DNA of 64,000 bases, from the NCBI GenBank assembly GCA_023259675.1, contig JALRGT010000001.1:1-64000 (forward strand). The letters run 5' to 3'. This DNA is from Flavobacterium sp. (lineage in GTDB: Bacteria > Bacteroidota > Bacteroidia > Flavobacteriales > Flavobacteriaceae). Within the stretch, counting starts at the first letter, position 1. Each line of letters begins with the position of its first letter. Below the pieces are notes generated by a model. The model worked only from the letters and a program-made list of their open reading frames with translations. It searched no databases and was not told the origin of the DNA. The position numbers were made by a program, and so were the translations under genes. Below are positions 6,637 to 22,908 of this stretch, one piece after another.

Positions 6637-7410
6637 TTATTTTTCAGACTGTACAAATTCCCCGTACAATCCTTTTAATTTATTGATTTCCTTAACTACA
6701 GATCCAATTACAATTATCGCAGGCGAACTCAACTTTTTTTCCTCCACTACTGCTTCTATTGTATTTATGGTTCCAATGCCTATTTTCTCGTCGGGCGTAG
6801 TTCCATTTTGAATAATAGCAATTGCTGTATCTCCTTTGGATTCTTTTTGAAACAACTCGACAATTTGTGCCAACTTACTCATTCCCATCAGAATCACCAC
6901 CGTTGCAGATGATTGAGCCGCTAGAGCGATATCCTCAGACAATTCCCTATCGGAAGTTGTCCCTGTGATTACCCAAAAACTTTCAGAAACACCTCTTTTT
7001 GTCAAAGCAATTCCTTGGTAAGCGGGTACCGCTATCGCCGATGAAATTCCAGGGACGACAAATGTAGGAATTCCAAAACTTTCTGCATATTCTATTTCTT
7101 CACTTCCGCGACCGAAAATAAAAGGATCTCCTCCTTTTAGCCGAACCACATGTCCATGCGTAAAGGCATTGTCCACAATCAACTGATTGATTTCGTCTTG
7201 TGAATAAGCGTGTTTTCCTATTCTTTTCCCAACAAATAACCGAATTGCTTCTTTTGGAGCATAGGCTAATATTTTTTCATTGGCCAAGGCGTCATATAAA
7301 ACCACATTCGCTTCAGCCAATGCTTTTACTCCTTTGAGAGTCAGCAAATCGGGATCGCCCGGACCGGCACCGACTAAAGTTATTTTTGGTTTTATAGTTG
7401 TATTACGCAT
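6637..7410 (-). CDS. cobA: Uroporphyrinogen-III C-methyltransferase
   Basis: LVGAGPGDPDLLTLKGVKAL, VRLKGGDPFIFGRGSEE, VVPGISSAIAVPAYQGIALTHR-like region. Confidence 0.95.
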   Translation of the reverse strand: MRNTTIKPKITLVGAGPGDPDLLTLKGVKALAEANVVLYDALANEKILAYAPKEAIRLFVGKRIGKHAYSQDEINQLIVDNAFTHGHVVRLKGGDPFIFGRGSEEIEYAESFGIPTFVVPGISSAIAVPAYQGIALTKRGVSESFWVITGTTSDRELSEDIALAAQSSATVVILMGMSKLAQIVELFQKESKGDTAIAIIQNGTTPDEKIGIGTINTIEAVVEEKKLSSPAIIVIGSVVKEINKLKGLYGEFVQSEK

Positions 7411-9493
7411 TAGCTAATTCTTTGGCTCTGTAATTTTCAATGGTTTCGAAAAACGAAATTCCTTCTTGAATGTATTGTTTTGCAAAGTCTTCCGATGGCT
7501 CATTAGCTTTTATTTGATACACTAATTCTTTGAATGTTTTTCCTAATTCAATTTTATTAGTATCTATAAAAACAGTATCAAATAAATCAATGATTCCAGC
7601 GTGAGTATTGGTTTTTTGTTTTTCGGCCAATAATAAAGCTTTCGCCCCATTTACTAAACCTGCATATGCCAAGTAAATAGCATCAGACCATTTTTGTTCT
7701 TGGAAAACCTCTTGAGCCGATGTCAATTTGTCTTTAGCTTCCAATAACAAAGTAGCTACTAAATCAATCACAACACCTGCACATTCTCCAACACCAACTG
7801 CTTTCACATAATTATCTGCGTTACCCCAATCTATAAAATCAGCTTCGGTAAGATTGGTAACATCGGCTAACGGTTTCAAGAATTCGTAAAAATATTTCTC
7901 TCCTTTAGCATCATAATAATCTAAGAATCGAGATCCATTAGCATTCGCTTCAAAATCATTTAAGATTAAGCGCAACGCTTCCGGCCCTCTACGGCTTGGA
8001 ATTTTGATTACTTTATCCGAGAATCTTCCGTTTCCGTTTCCTAAAATCCCACCACCCAATAGTACTTGTAATGCCGGCGCCACTAATTTCCCTGAATTGA
8101 TTGACATTCCTTGGAAACCAATTTCGGCCATATTGTGTTGACCACAAGCATTCATACAACCACTAATTTTGATAGCAATCTCTGTATTATTGGCAAATTG
8201 TGGGTATTCTGCTTTTAAGACTCTTTCTAATTCGTCTGCAATACCCGTACTGCTTGCAATTCCTAAGTTACAAGTATCTGTACCAGGACAAGCCGTGATA
8301 TCACCAATAGTATTGTAACCTAAGTTAACCATATCTAATTTGGCTAATTCTTGGTAAAAGAATGCCAGATTTTCTTCTTTAATATTACGCAAAACGATAT
8401 TTTGTCTTAATGAAAAACGCAATTCATTTGCACCGTAATTTTTAATCAAATCAGCTAATAATCTCGCTTTATCTGTATAAAAATCCCCTAAAAGAACTTT
8501 AATTCCGATAGCTACATATCCCGCTTGTTTTTGTGGAATCACATTCGATTTTTTCCAAGCTTCAAAAGCTTCAACATCTTCAATAGTTACTATTGGCACT
8601 TCTAATAATGGTTCAGCAATAGCACCTTCAAAAGCAGTGGTATCAATCTCGTAAGTATGGAAAGGCAATGCTTTTTTCTCTTCGTCAACCAAACGTAAAA
8701 ACTCATCACGTCCTAAGTCTTTAATCAAAAACTTCATACGTGCTTTTAGACGTTTTGCTCTTTCTCCGTAACGGTCAAAAACTCGAATTACACCTTCGGC
8801 AGTTGGAATAATTTGGTTTACCGGTACAAATTCTGAAAGTAATTCGGCATGACTTGGCTGAGAACCTAATCCTCCACCTAACATTATTTTGAATCCTTTT
8901 TGACCATTTACAATTTTTGGAATAAATCCTAAATCATGCAAATAGCTTAAAGCAGTATCCTCATCAGATGAAGAAAATGATATTTTGAATTTACGTCCCA
9001 TTTCTTGGCAAATTGGGTTACGCAATAAATATTGAAATAAACCGTGAGCGTACGGAGAAACATCAAAAGGTTCGTTTACATCTACACCTGCCAATTCACT
9101 GGCCGTAATATTACGTACCGTGTTTCCACAAGCTTCTCTTAAAGTAATATCGTCTTTGGCTAATTCTGACCAAAGTTCTGGCGTTCTATCTAAACTCACA
9201 TAATGAATCTGAATATCCTGACGTGTTGTAATATGCAAACGTCCCGTAGAATATTTATCTGAAACTTCAGTAATTCTTTTTAATTGCTCACTGGTTACTT
9301 TTCCGTAAGGCAATTTAATACGAATCATCTGTACCCCTTCCTGACGTTGTCCGTAAATTCCACGAGCCAAACGAAGACTACGAAAACGCTCGTCGTCAAT
9401 TTGACCACCACGGAATAAATGAATCTTTTTCTCTAAATCGATAATCTCTTTCTCGACAATCGGGTTTTCTATTTCGCTTCTAAAAGTTTTCAT
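7403..9493 (-). CDS. Sulfite/nitrite reductase (siroheme, ferredoxin type) with C-terminal HEPN-like domain
   Basis: Siroheme/4Fe-4S motifs TACPGTDTCNLG and KISGCMNACGQHNMAEIGFQG; extra ~120 aa helical C-terminus (WSDAIYLAYAGLVNGAKALLLAEKQKTNTHAG). Confidence 0.92.
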   Translation of the reverse strand: MKTFRSEIENPIVEKEIIDLEKKIHLFRGGQIDDERFRSLRLARGIYGQRQEGVQMIRIKLPYGKVTSEQLKRITEVSDKYSTGRLHITTRQDIQIHYVSLDRTPELWSELAKDDITLREACGNTVRNITASELAGVDVNEPFDVSPYAHGLFQYLLRNPICQEMGRKFKISFSSSDEDTALSYLHDLGFIPKIVNGQKGFKIMLGGGLGSQPSHAELLSEFVPVNQIIPTAEGVIRVFDRYGERAKRLKARMKFLIKDLGRDEFLRLVDEEKKALPFHTYEIDTTAFEGAIAEPLLEVPIVTIEDVEAFEAWKKSNVIPQKQAGYVAIGIKVLLGDFYTDKARLLADLIKNYGANELRFSLRQNIVLRNIKEENLAFFYQELAKLDMVNLGYNTIGDITACPGTDTCNLGIASSTGIADELERVLKAEYPQFANNTEIAIKISGCMNACGQHNMAEIGFQGMSINSGKLVAPALQVLLGGGILGNGNGRFSDKVIKIPSRRGPEALRLILNDFEANANGSRFLDYYDAKGEKYFYEFLKPLADVTNLTEADFIDWGNADNYVKAVGVGECAGVVIDLVATLLLEAKDKLTSAQEVFQEQKWSDAIYLAYAGLVNGAKALLLAEKQKTNTHAGIIDLFDTVFIDTNKIELGKTFKELVYQIKANEPSEDFAKQYIQEGISFFETIENYRAKELANA

Positions 9494-19086: not shown

Positions 19087-20055
19087 CTAAAAAATATCTG
19101 CAAGCAAATTATTTAATTGTTCGTATTCTATCAGAAAAGCATCATGTCCGTGAACAGATTTAATTTCTCCATAGGAAACATTCACTTGATGTTTCTTTAA
19201 TTCTAAATAGGTTTCCCTATTTTCCTTTACCGTAAAAAACAAATCGGAATCGATTCCGATGATATGAATAGTCGCCTCTATTTTTGAAACAAATACTTCA
19301 AAAGGTTCCGCATTTCTGTTAATATCAATTGTTTTTAACAACTGGTTCATCATTTTATAAGCCGACAACTGAAAGCGTTGTTGTAATTTTTCTCCATGAT
19401 GCACCAACCAACTTTCTACATTAAAAATACCTAAATTTTCATTAAGGGTTCTCTGAAACTTTTCTTTGAAAGATTCCGGAGTTCTGTAACACAACATTGC
19501 ATGAATTCTGGCATCTTCAATAGGTTTGCAGGAATTATTGAGTATCTGTTCCTGTACATAACAGTTCGCAATAACCCAATCCGTCGATTTCCAATCGGTC
19601 GCAATTGGAATCAAATGCTTCGTGATTTTAGGCTGCAAAGCAATCATTTCCCATGCAATTCCACCGCCAACAGAACCTCCAATTATGGCATAAAGTTGTT
19701 TAATTTGTAAGTGCTCAACACCTTGAATAAAAAGTTTAGCTATATCTCTGGCATTGAAATCGAAATAATTTTCGATACTATCTCCATCAAATCCATTTCC
19801 TGGAACATTAAAAGCTAAAACAGAATATTTATGGGTGTCAATCGTTTTATTTTCTCCTATCAAATCATTCCACCAACCAGTTGAACCAATTACATGAGCA
19901 TTTCCAGTCAATGCATGATTCACCAAAACGATTGGAGCTGTATTTAATTCTGGACCAAAAGCTTCAAAACTTAAGTTTAGGCTAGGATAAAACGCACCAC
20001 TTTCGGTAGTAAAATTTTGTATTGTTATAATGTTGGGTTTATTTTCCAATTTCAA
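19087..20055 (-). CDS. metX: Homoserine O-acetyltransferase family (alpha/beta hydrolase), TTG start
   Basis: VLVNHALTGNAHVIG, GGSVGGGIAWEM nucleophile elbow, VHGHDAFLIE. Codon at 20055 is TTG with no in-frame ATG found just upstream. Confidence 0.93.
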   Translation of the reverse strand: MKLENKPNIITIQNFTTESGAFYPSLNLSFEAFGPELNTAPIVLVNHALTGNAHVIGSTGWWNDLIGENKTIDTHKYSVLAFNVPGNGFDGDSIENYFDFNARDIAKLFIQGVEHLQIKQLYAIIGGSVGGGIAWEMIALQPKITKHLIPIATDWKSTDWVIANCYVQEQILNNSCKPIEDARIHAMLCYRTPESFKEKFQRTLNENLGIFNVESWLVHHGEKLQQRFQLSAYKMMNQLLKTIDINRNAEPFEVFVSKIEATIHIIGIDSDLFFTVKENRETYLELKKHQVNVSYGEIKSVHGHDAFLIEYEQLNNLLADIF

Positions 20056-20116: not shown

Positions 20117-20126
20117 AATTCTTATT

Positions 20127-20230
20127 GTTATCTTTCCACGTGGGACGTGGTAGAATGCAGCACCTTCTTCGATTTACCGAAGGGTTGCTAAGGTTTCATC
20201 GGGTCTAATCCCTCTACCTTTCTTTATAAC
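20127..20230 (-). ncRNA. SAM-I (S-box) riboswitch upstream of metX
   Basis: Minus strand GTTATAAAGAAAGGTAGAGGGATTAGACCCGATGAAACCTTAGCAACC-(CTTCGGTAAATCGAAG)-AAGGTGCTGCATTCTACC-(ACGTCCCACGT)-GGAAAGATAAC; P1 GTTAT/ATAAC, S-box core GATGAAACC, AGCAACC, AAGGTGCT. Confidence 0.93.
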
Positions 20231-20258
20231 ATTTCATTACATTTTGAACTTCAAAGCA

Positions 20259-20457: not shown

Positions 20458-20661
20458 TTAGATAAAAAAAGCTTCATTCTCTTTTGAATACATTAAAAAA
20501 AGATGGGTATTAATGATTTTTTTATTCGCTTTTATATCTTTAGATTTCATTCCAAATCTGGGGTGTATTAATTCATTTTCTGCAGCATTAACAGTTGCTT
20601 CATTTCTATTTCTAAAATTGAAATTCAGCGCATTTTCTAGGAGGTATAGTATTTTTCTCAT
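20458..20661 (-). CDS. Hypothetical 67-aa protein
   Basis: Hydrophilic ORF in the metX upstream region; an opposite-strand ORF overlaps, so coding status is uncertain. Confidence 0.3.
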   Translation of the reverse strand: MRKILYLLENALNFNFRNRNEATVNAAENELIHPRFGMKSKDIKANKKIINTHLFLMYSKENEAFFI

Positions 20662-20706: not shown

Positions 20707-20760
20707 AATTCAACAAAAAACCCTTTTGGAAAAAATACCAAAAGGGTTTAAGTTGAATTA
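20707..20760 (-). terminator. Strong rho-independent terminator after third sORF
   Basis: Minus strand AATTCAACTTAAACCCTTTTGG-TATTTTTT-CCAAAAGGGTTTTTTGTTGAATT. Confidence 0.8.
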
Positions 20761-20778: not shown

Positions 20779-20868
20779 TCAACAGACATAAATGACCATA
20801 GCAGACTTTTTACAAGTCATTGCATTTTTTTTGGAATTATTAAACTGCTGTGTATTTAAATTTTTCAT
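20779..20868 (-). CDS. Candidate sORF (29 aa): MKNLNTQQFNNSKKNAMTCKKSAMVIYVC
   Basis: ATG to TGA read directly; lies between two terminators; the segment just after its stop pairs with the downstream terminator's 5' arm. Confidence 0.35.
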   Translation of the reverse strand: MKNLNTQQFNNSKKNAMTCKKSAMVIYVC

Positions 20869-20885: not shown

Positions 20886-20920
20886 AAAAAAAAAGCCTCC
20901 CGTTTTGCGGGAGGCTTTTT
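20886..20920 (-). terminator. Rho-independent terminator of leader unit 1
   Basis: Minus strand AAAGCCTCCCG-CAAAA-CGGGAGGCTTTTTTTTT. Confidence 0.9.
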
Positions 20921-20942: not shown

Positions 20943-21011
20943 TTAAGCAATAGTCGACCCGCAGGACTTATCCTGAACCTTTTTCGACATATTACATACA
21001 TTAAAAATCAT
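20943..21011 (-). CDS. Candidate leader peptide 1 (22 aa): MIFNVCNMSKKVQDKSCGSTIA
   Basis: Same length and same C-terminus CGxTIA-stop as the sORF upstream of metY; same promoter and palindrome upstream; terminator immediately downstream. Confidence 0.6.
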   Translation of the reverse strand: MIFNVCNMSKKVQDKSCGSTIA

Positions 21012-21177: not shown

Positions 21178-22452
21178 TTATAAAGTGTCAAAAACGGCTT
21201 TCAAATCGGCTTTCAAATCTTCTACGTTTTCTAATCCTACTGAAATTCGAATTAAATCTTTAGAAACTCCGGAACTCAATTGTTGCTCTTCTGATAATTG
21301 TTGGTGCGTAGTACTTGACGGATGAATGATCAATGATTTAGTATCTCCAATATTAGCTAACAATGAAAACAATTTGGTTTCATCAGCAACTTTCTTAGCC
21401 GCATCAAATCCTCCTTTTAACCCAAAAGTTACCAAACCATTTTGCCCTTTCGGTAAATATTGTTTTGCTAAATCATAGTATTTACTCGACTTCAATCCCG
21501 GATAGTTCACCCATGCCACTTGGTCTTGTTCTTCTAACCAATGAGCTATTGCCAAACCATTTTCACTATGTTTTTGTACACGAATAGCCAAGGTTTCTAA
21601 TCCCTGTATAATTTGAAAGGCATTAAACGGACTCAATGCTGCTCCATAATCTCGTAATCCCTCAATTCTTACTTTAGCAATAAATGCAGCCGCTCCCAAA
21701 GCATCATGATAAACCAACCCATGATATCCTGAATTCGGTTCAGTAAACTCCGGAAAACGCCCACTACTCCAGTCAAAAGTTCCTGCATCAATAATTGCCC
21801 CTCCTAAAGAAGTTCCGTTACCCGCTATATATTTAGTCAAAGAATGAATTACAATATTGGCTCCATAAGCAATTGGATTCAACAAATACGGAGAAGCCAC
21901 CGTATTATCAACCACAAATGGCACTTTTAAAGCCTTAGCCACAGCAGCAATAGATTTCAAATCCAATACATCTAATTTTGGATTCCCTAAACTTTCCACA
22001 AAAACAACTTTCGTATTGTCATTGGCTGCTTTCTTAAAATTTTCTGCATCCGATGGATCAACAAAGGTGGTTGTGATTCCAAGTCTTGGTAAAGTTGAAC
22101 TTAACAAATTGAAGGTCCCTCCATATAAACTACTGGAAGCAACTATATGATCGCCTGTTTTAAGCATAGTCAACAATGCCGTAGCAATCGCTGCAGTTCC
22201 CGAGGCAGTAACCACAGCCGCAATTCCACCTTCAAGAGCCGCTAATCGTTGCTCCAAAATATCATTCGTTGGATTATTTAATCTTGTGTAAATAAATCCT
22301 GCTTCTGCTAATCCAAATAAATTAGCAGCATGCTCAGAATTATTAAAAACATAGGAAGAAGTTTGGTAAATAGGAACAGCTCTTGTTCCAGCATGTTGTG
22401 TAACATCGTGTCCTGCATGCAGGGCATTGGTTTCAAAGTTTAATGTACTCAT
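21178..22452 (-). CDS. metY: O-acetylhomoserine sulfhydrylase (PLP)
   Basis: ETNALHAGHDVTQHAGTRAVPIYQTSSYVF, SLTKYIAGNGTSLGG, IIHPSSTTHQQLSEEQ; ~424 aa typical of MetY. Confidence 0.95.
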   Translation of the reverse strand: MSTLNFETNALHAGHDVTQHAGTRAVPIYQTSSYVFNNSEHAANLFGLAEAGFIYTRLNNPTNDILEQRLAALEGGIAAVVTASGTAAIATALLTMLKTGDHIVASSSLYGGTFNLLSSTLPRLGITTTFVDPSDAENFKKAANDNTKVVFVESLGNPKLDVLDLKSIAAVAKALKVPFVVDNTVASPYLLNPIAYGANIVIHSLTKYIAGNGTSLGGAIIDAGTFDWSSGRFPEFTEPNSGYHGLVYHDALGAAAFIAKVRIEGLRDYGAALSPFNAFQIIQGLETLAIRVQKHSENGLAIAHWLEEQDQVAWVNYPGLKSSKYYDLAKQYLPKGQNGLVTFGLKGGFDAAKKVADETKLFSLLANIGDTKSLIIHPSSTTHQQLSEEQQLSSGVSKDLIRISVGLENVEDLKADLKAVFDTL

Positions 22453-22482
22453 GTTTATTTGTTTTTTAATTAATATTTATTC

Positions 22483-22514
22483 AAAAAAAAAGCCTTCCAA
22501 TTTCTCGGGAGGCT
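22483..22514 (-). terminator. Attenuator terminator upstream of metY
   Basis: Minus strand AGCCTCCC-GAGAAATT-GGAAGGCTTTTTTTTT, with one C/A mismatch in the stem, 31 nt before the metY ATG. Confidence 0.75.
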
Positions 22515-22537
22515 AAACTTATATTGATGAATTCAGT

Positions 22538-22606
22538 TTAAGCAATAGTATACCCGCAGAAAAAACTCTGTTTGGACATACACATTGTAAACTTTATTTC
22601 TTTCAT
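22538..22606 (-). CDS. Candidate leader peptide 2 (22 aa): MKEIKFTMCMSKQSFFCGYTIA
   Basis: ATG to TAA read directly; last 22 nt CTGCGGGTATACTATTGCTTAA are 20/22 identical to leader 1; followed by terminator then metY. Confidence 0.65.
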   Translation of the reverse strand: MKEIKFTMCMSKQSFFCGYTIA

Positions 22607-22625
22607 TTTTTATTATTTTGGAACT

Positions 22626-22657
22626 CAAATTTCCAATCTTATTTTGGATTATCCAAA
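22626..22657 (-). promoter_or_regulatory. Promoter plus palindrome of metY leader
   Basis: Minus strand TTTGGATAATCCAAAATAAGATTGGAAATTTG: same -33/-7 spacing (20 nt) and palindrome as leader unit 1. Confidence 0.5.
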
Positions 22658-22789: not shown

Positions 22790-22800
22790 CACCCGAATAC

Positions 22801-22908
22801 AAGAGGAAAAATTTGAACTGATTGCAACCTCTTCATAATGAAACGAATTCATTATGGATACTGAAAAGTTTTCAGTAGAAAAAAATGCTAAAGCAGAAAC
22901 TCTCCTTT
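22801..22908 (+). ncRNA. Structured 5' leader of metK, probable SAM-responsive S-box-like element
   Basis: AAGAGGAAAAATTTGAACTGATTGCAACC, hairpins CATAATGAA/TTCATTATG and TACTGAAAA/TTTTCAGTA, then AATGCTAAAGCAG and CTCT; GCAACC and TGCTAA resemble S-box core strings. Confidence 0.5.

Follow-up and report, generated by a model that had tools for sequence, protein, structure and literature searches.

Putative methionine/cysteine leader-peptide attenuators upstream of metY and other sulfur amino acid genes in Flavobacterium

The DNA analysed here (the window, 64,000 nucleotides of Flavobacterium sp. contig JALRGT010000001.1) carries metY, encoding O-acetylhomoserine sulfhydrylase (21178-22452, minus strand; TIGR01326, 635 bits, cut-off 495), and 5' of it a leader whose upstream neighbour, metK, is in divergent orientation. 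On the minus strand the leader contains a 22-codon ORF of the type we call Type II, MKEIKFTMCMSKQSFFCGYTIA, which runs from an ATG at 22606 to the end of its stop codon at 22538 and matches our Type II covariance model R2 (E 5.8e-11). It is followed by an intrinsic terminator, AGCCTCCCGAGAAATTGGAAGGCT (22482-22514; hairpin 22514-22491, then a T9 tail; sequence, folding and alignment), whose stem contains a C-A mismatch and which lies 38 nt 5' of the metY ATG at 22452; the terminator between ORF and gene is established as anatomy, and termination itself is inferred. The promoter is a predicted Bacteroidetes-type element, TTTG ... GAAATTTG (22626-22657, minus strand), supported by the sequence and by a similar box in relatives: the 3' end of its -7-like box, GAAATTTG, is 19 nt 5' of the leader ATG (the start site is unmapped), and of 28 Type II leaders, 24 have an NAnnTTTG box 13-27 nt 5' of their ATG. 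A sigma-70 promoter scan gave the same counts as in shuffles and was hence uninformative. A short ORF thus placed between a predicted promoter and the first gene, as in trp-type attenuators, is present, its translation being inferred. Rfam covariance models (riboswitch, T-box, Bacteroid-trp RF01692) gave no match at 22483-22657, and BLAST of the leader against plasmids returned zero matches.

Alone, the leader folds at -18.9 kcal/mol (z -2.9) into a long 1:2 hairpin (22593-22535; 5' arm 22593-22566, 3' arm 22561-22535; folding and alignment). An earlier note, made from the sequence alone, had proposed at this place a promoter, leader ORF, terminator and metY arranged as a trp-style attenuator. 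The strand, coordinates and peptide that it gave for the ORF held, and ORF, terminator and metY are confirmed, the promoter only as a predicted box. Its 1:2 pairing of CAGA with TCTG held in part, as it exists but is merely the tip of a hairpin extending far beyond the proposed 4 bp, and its placing of the Met-Cys-Met codons directly before segment 1 failed: these control codons, ATG TGT ATG (codons 8-10, 22577-22585, minus strand), sit inside the 5' arm of the hairpin, and folding predicts that a stall there would lead to the antiterminator. Segment 2 of the antiterminator, TTTCTGCGGG (22553-22562, minus strand), corresponds to codons 15-18 of the ORF, and segment 3, CCCGAGAAA (22501-22509, minus strand), forms the 5' arm and loop of the terminator; both rest on pairing, covariation and folding. 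The proposed 2:3 pairing with CCCGAGA held and is slightly longer than noted, UUUCU(G)CGGG pairing with CCCGAGAAA through nine pairs and one bulge in a helix that comprises UUUCU/AGAAA plus CGGG/CCCG. By itself this duplex is not significant (p 0.135), and its support is comparative.

Between metY and metX (homoserine O-acyltransferase family, 19087-20055, minus strand; best NCBIfam match MetX, below cut-off) lie in order a Type II attenuator (21011-20890), a Type I attenuator (20868-20718), a conserved 67-aa ORF and a SAM-I riboswitch, all on the minus strand. The second Type II leader ORF, MIFNVCNMSKKVQDKSCGSTIA (20943-21011; R2 E 2.1e-13), precedes its own terminator (20890-20920), with antiterminator TGCGGG (20963-20958) facing CCCGCA (20911-20906); the Type I leader ORF, MKNLNTQQFNNSKKNAMTCKKSAMVIYVC (20779-20868; E 6.1e-5 with the Type I model R1), likewise precedes a terminator (20718-20749), with antiterminator ATACCGAAAG (20779-20770) facing CTTTTGGTAT (20744-20735), these terminators and pairings being drawn from sequence and folding. 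The SAM-I riboswitch (20125-20232) scores 78.3 bits with RF00162. In the window's own genome, R1 and R2 match at E <1e-4 solely the metY leader and the two metX-proximal elements; R2 was trained on, among others, the metY leader and the first of the two metX leaders, so that their scores are partly by construction, and neither model was trained on the Type I element. The draft genome scanned is 82% complete, and model E-values are rough by construction. Those sub-threshold matches that we examined were ordinary terminators without Met/Cys ORFs. The 67-aa ORF (20458-20661) has no match in Pfam or NCBIfam; its relatives, with a similar C-terminus ..MYSxENExLFI, sit between attenuator and metX, and F. 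johnsoniae-like species have a similar-looking small ORF directly 5' of metY. A SAM-II (long loop) riboswitch match also lies 5' of metK (22797-22901, plus strand), so that three kinds of sulfur sensor occur within 3 kb.

We compared 225 distinct metY upstream regions, 138 from Flavobacterium and near relatives and 87 from other Flavobacteriaceae genera, calling a leader where an ORF of 8-60 aa ended shortly 5' of a terminator and held at least three internal Met+Cys and more than 12% Met+Cys. A Met/Cys-rich leader with terminator is found in 125 of the 138 regions, the remainder consisting of 10, all from Aquimarina or Spongiivirga, that have an S-box motif, and three with neither; among the 87 regions of other genera, 13 have the leader, 55 the S-box and 19 neither. 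Leader and S-box never occur together in the 225 regions (Fisher p 3e-7 among the 87 of other genera; the loci lack phylogenetic independence). S-boxes were called at these loci by sequence pattern and not by covariance model, and one leader call (L216) is weak. None of 414 dinucleotide shuffles of leader-bearing upstream regions was called by the detector, and the reverse strand of the 138 loci gave four weak calls, none under a stricter rule. On the metY tree the leader is the usual state in the Flavobacterium clade and recurs scattered among S-box lineages, and well supported branches force at least four changes. Two genomes contain neighbouring metY paralogues that each have their own Met/Cys leader (L014 and L131 in G031, L015 and L132 in G114).

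What is conserved in the leader peptides is their Met/Cys codons: leaving out the start, 19% of residues are Met and 14% Cys. Across 74 dissimilar representatives, Met makes up 18.9% and Cys 10.9% of the coding frame, against 0.6% Met in the other two frames; internal Met is present in all 74 and internal Cys is absent from four. Of 142 gaps in the coding part of the Type I alignment, 139 are multiples of three, and aligned Cys codons exchange TGT and TGC. Type II peptides, the kind found at the window's metY, are about 22 aa long and of the form MxxxxxNMCxMM(P/W)xxSAExxIV, and their terminators are of the CCTCTGC or GCCTCCC type. Type I peptides are mostly of 24-33 aa, with a Met/Cys block (e.g. 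MMCCMMRMC) and then CYCQK at the stop; here the end of the ORF itself forms segment 2, and the terminators are of the CCTTTTGG type.

The mutually exclusive antiterminator is kept by covariation. Summed over the leaders, duplexes between each segment 2 and its own segment 3 reach -865 kcal/mol, compared with -609 (sd 22) for swapped partners, and within each type none of 5000 permutations attains the observed sum. The Type II antiterminator is paired in 83.3% of alignment cells, against 66.9% when shuffled and 40-56% when slid by 1-3 columns, and the Type II terminator in 88.9%. In Type I, the antiterminator is 83.5% paired, the terminator 99.3% (8 of 11 pairs with double changes) and the 1:2 helix 65.4% (double changes in 8 of 8 pairs), while the Type II 1:2 helix covaries modestly (71.9% paired, 68.5% shuffled). 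Compensatory changes between segments 2 and 3 can be seen by eye in GCAGAG/CTCTGC (L075), GCAGCG/CGCTGC (L190) and CTGTAGGGG/CCTCTATAG (L232). Conservation of the small ORF and covariation of the alternative pairings in relatives, the checks that the earlier note had proposed, were thus both found.

The earlier note had treated the attenuator as a single metY device; our results correct this, as it is one of a family with two architectures, often in tandem, that also precedes metX, cysH, cysteine synthase and other genes. The covariance models gave 61 R1 and 63 R2 matches in 61 Flavobacterium genomes. All 60 matches obtained as loci adjoin metY, metX, metK, homoserine dehydrogenase or PAPS reductase genes. 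Twelve further sites, examined singly, lie before metX, an OsmC-hom-metH operon, cysH-cysD-cysN, an operon of hexapeptide transferase and cysteine synthase-like genes, a Cys/Met PLP enzyme, and TonB-dependent receptors near the met cluster, with one before an ABC transporter and one off the contig end. Type II followed by Type I at no more than 250 nt occurs 40 times, in 36 of the 61 genomes, and the reverse order was not found in any of the 61. The R2 matches in 14 genomes of other genera are Type II leaders with NMCCMMW...SAxxxIV-like peptides. The association of this Flavobacteriaceae family with sulfur amino acid genes is shown; regulation of those genes is inferred. Where a Type II leader precedes a TonB-dependent receptor near the met cluster (L356:1-2500, L360:1-2500), an outer-membrane transporter is possibly co-controlled. 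The methionine synthase families PF02574 and PF01717 were considered as extra targets in relatives and rejected, no family-like leader and terminator being found there.

Folding of the leader through the end of segment 3 with the ribosome footprint masked, which gives equilibrium folds and not kinetics, predicts that the metY leader behaves like a trp-type attenuator. Upstream RNA is predicted to capture segment 3 with a probability of 0.20 when no ribosome is present; this rises to 0.99-1.00, segment 2 being the partner, with a ribosome stalled at codon 8, 9 or 10, and falls to 0.07 with the ribosome at the stop, leaving the terminator to form. Over the 74 representatives the mean capture is 0.83 without ribosome, 0.94 stalled and 0.55 at the stop, the stalled value exceeding the stop value in 89% (Wilcoxon p 3e-12). 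In many Type I leaders the folds show segment 3 sequestered even without translation. Termination in the absence of translation is predicted for the metY leader, and not for the two metX-proximal leaders or many Type I leaders; the equation of no translation with termination is therefore unsupported for these Type I leaders and is not general.

We consider it very likely (probability about 0.88) that the metY element works as a ribosome-mediated transcription attenuator, its signal being the charging of Met-tRNA and, in most leaders, of Cys-tRNA as well. Its anatomy, the conservation and covariation of that anatomy and the association with Met/Cys genes are shown; translation, stalling, termination and the amino-acid response are inferred. 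A ribosome would translate the 22-codon ORF as RNA polymerase is still transcribing the leader. With ample Met and Cys the ribosome would reach the stop and cover the segment 2 region, segments 3 and 4 would pair, and transcription would stop before metY. Under shortage of Met (or Cys), the ribosome would stall at codons 8-10, in the 5' arm of the 1:2 hairpin, leaving segment 2 free to pair with segment 3, which would block the terminator so that metY is transcribed. Without a ribosome, the 1:2 hairpin of the metY leader would form and the terminator prevail. Before metX, the two further elements in series with the SAM-I riboswitch would merge tRNA-charging and SAM signals. The proposal of the earlier note that the attenuator senses Met and/or Cys charging is at its core strongly supported by comparison, the response itself remaining an inference: our support rests on sequence comparison and folds, with no expression, ribosome-profiling or RNA-end data, and the relative weight of Met and Cys is unresolved.

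Other explanations must be weighed against this reading. An arrest peptide, whose nascent chain would stall the ribosome on a small molecule (e.g. SAM, Met or Cys) and not on uncharged tRNA, could account for the nearly fixed length of 22 residues and the conserved C-terminal I-A/V of Type II. However, leaders stay rich in Met/Cys codons yet differ freely in how many they have and in the order and spacing of these, Met/Cys richness is the sole residue pattern common to both types, and the conserved C-terminus of Type II falls on the 3' arm of the 1:2 helix, so that a helix also explains the fixed length and C-terminus; we judge this rival very improbable. The same holds for the idea that the leader follows general translation rate, or cysteine/sulfide status alone, the Met codons being incidental. 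In its favour, Cys is enriched too and family leaders precede cysH and cysteine synthase operons, but the four of 74 representatives that lack internal Cys keep many Met, and none lacks Met.

Two remaining possibilities can be virtually dismissed. The terminator might belong to an upstream transcript, or the element might be an sRNA gene, in either case with a chance ORF, and the single-sequence 2:3 statistics of the window are indeed weak. Against this stand the failure of all 414 shuffles to yield a leader, the covariation of three helices, the short distance to metY and the divergent metK; moreover, retention of ORF and alternative pairing in relatives, the finding that would refute this rival, was observed. 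Likewise, an unrecognised riboswitch binding Met, SAM or another ligand directly is suggested by the position, which in other genera is that of the SAM-I riboswitch, yet there is no Rfam match, the alignments lack a conserved unpaired core, and the coding frame is conserved.

The attenuator reading follows the classical principle of trp-type attenuators (trp, his, ilv, leu, phe and thr of Proteobacteria; trp and ilvB of Actinobacteria, PMC1262725), which likewise combine pathway-product codons in a leader ORF with exclusive antiterminator and terminator. The Flavobacterium family differs from these in using Met and Cys codons, in belonging to Bacteroidota, in its two architectures in tandem, and in its targets, direct sulfhydrylation and other sulfur genes. 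Among the closest parallels found are the polycysteine leaderless sORFs that mycobacteria carry (Canestrari 2020, cited in PMC13236596; predicted in PMC1262725), which are also short Cys-codon ORFs before sulfur assimilation genes and are Cys-responsive; they lack a conserved terminator hairpin (PMC1262725) and have been termed translational attenuators (PMC13236596), and they contain Cys runs, unlike the Met/Cys blocks of Flavobacterium, with no evident sequence relation. SAM riboswitches, T-boxes and repressors are known to control methionine pathways. The S-box/SAM-I riboswitch (RF00162), which senses SAM directly, occupies the same metY position in most other Flavobacteriaceae genera and is absent from every leader-bearing metY locus.

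The literature we searched describes leader peptides for Trp and branched-chain amino acids and Cys-responsive sORFs in mycobacteria (PMC1262725, PMC13236596), and we found in it no described leader-peptide attenuator using Met codons, subscription literature and supplements being outside its scope. The earlier note knew of no attenuator of this kind in Bacteroidetes, a statement that needs qualification, as leader-peptide attenuation there has been hinted at before. The Bacteroid-trp motif RF01692, catalogued as a cis-regulatory motif (PMC2864571), is another leader motif of Bacteroidetes, for a different amino acid and unmatched at the metY leader; it is believed to be a Trp attenuator. In F. 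psychrophilum, 'strong clues' for attenuation were reported upstream of amino-acid biosynthesis operons, with genes unnamed in the main text (PMC9723704); the genus is the same, and we cannot exclude an overlap with metY. Within the literature searched, the control amino acids, the targets and the tandem arrangement are new, and the attenuation principle is known.

The proposed Met/Cys attenuators are widespread in a major environmental family, where they sit at the position held by a SAM riboswitch in sister genera and form fixed-order tandems, sometimes in series with that riboswitch. They offer a natural system for asking why cells swap SAM sensing for tRNA-charging sensing, and bear on whether transcription-translation coupling in Bacteroidota suffices for classical attenuation. 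We lean, by a narrow margin, towards a bolder reading, in which dual Met/Cys tRNA-charging attenuators of two architectures, in the fixed order II-I, would act regulon-wide, having replaced the SAM-I riboswitch at metY and standing in series with it elsewhere, so that metX would answer to two sensors of tRNA charging and a single SAM sensor.

Elsewhere in the window, a sulfite reductase-like protein (7403-9493, minus strand) has two NIR_SIR halves, and its C-terminus matches a HEPN domain (E 1.2e-5). The gap that separates the metH N-terminal gene from an oxidoreductase gene carries, on the opposite strand, a Flavo-1 RNA (RF01705; 4721-4821, plus strand).
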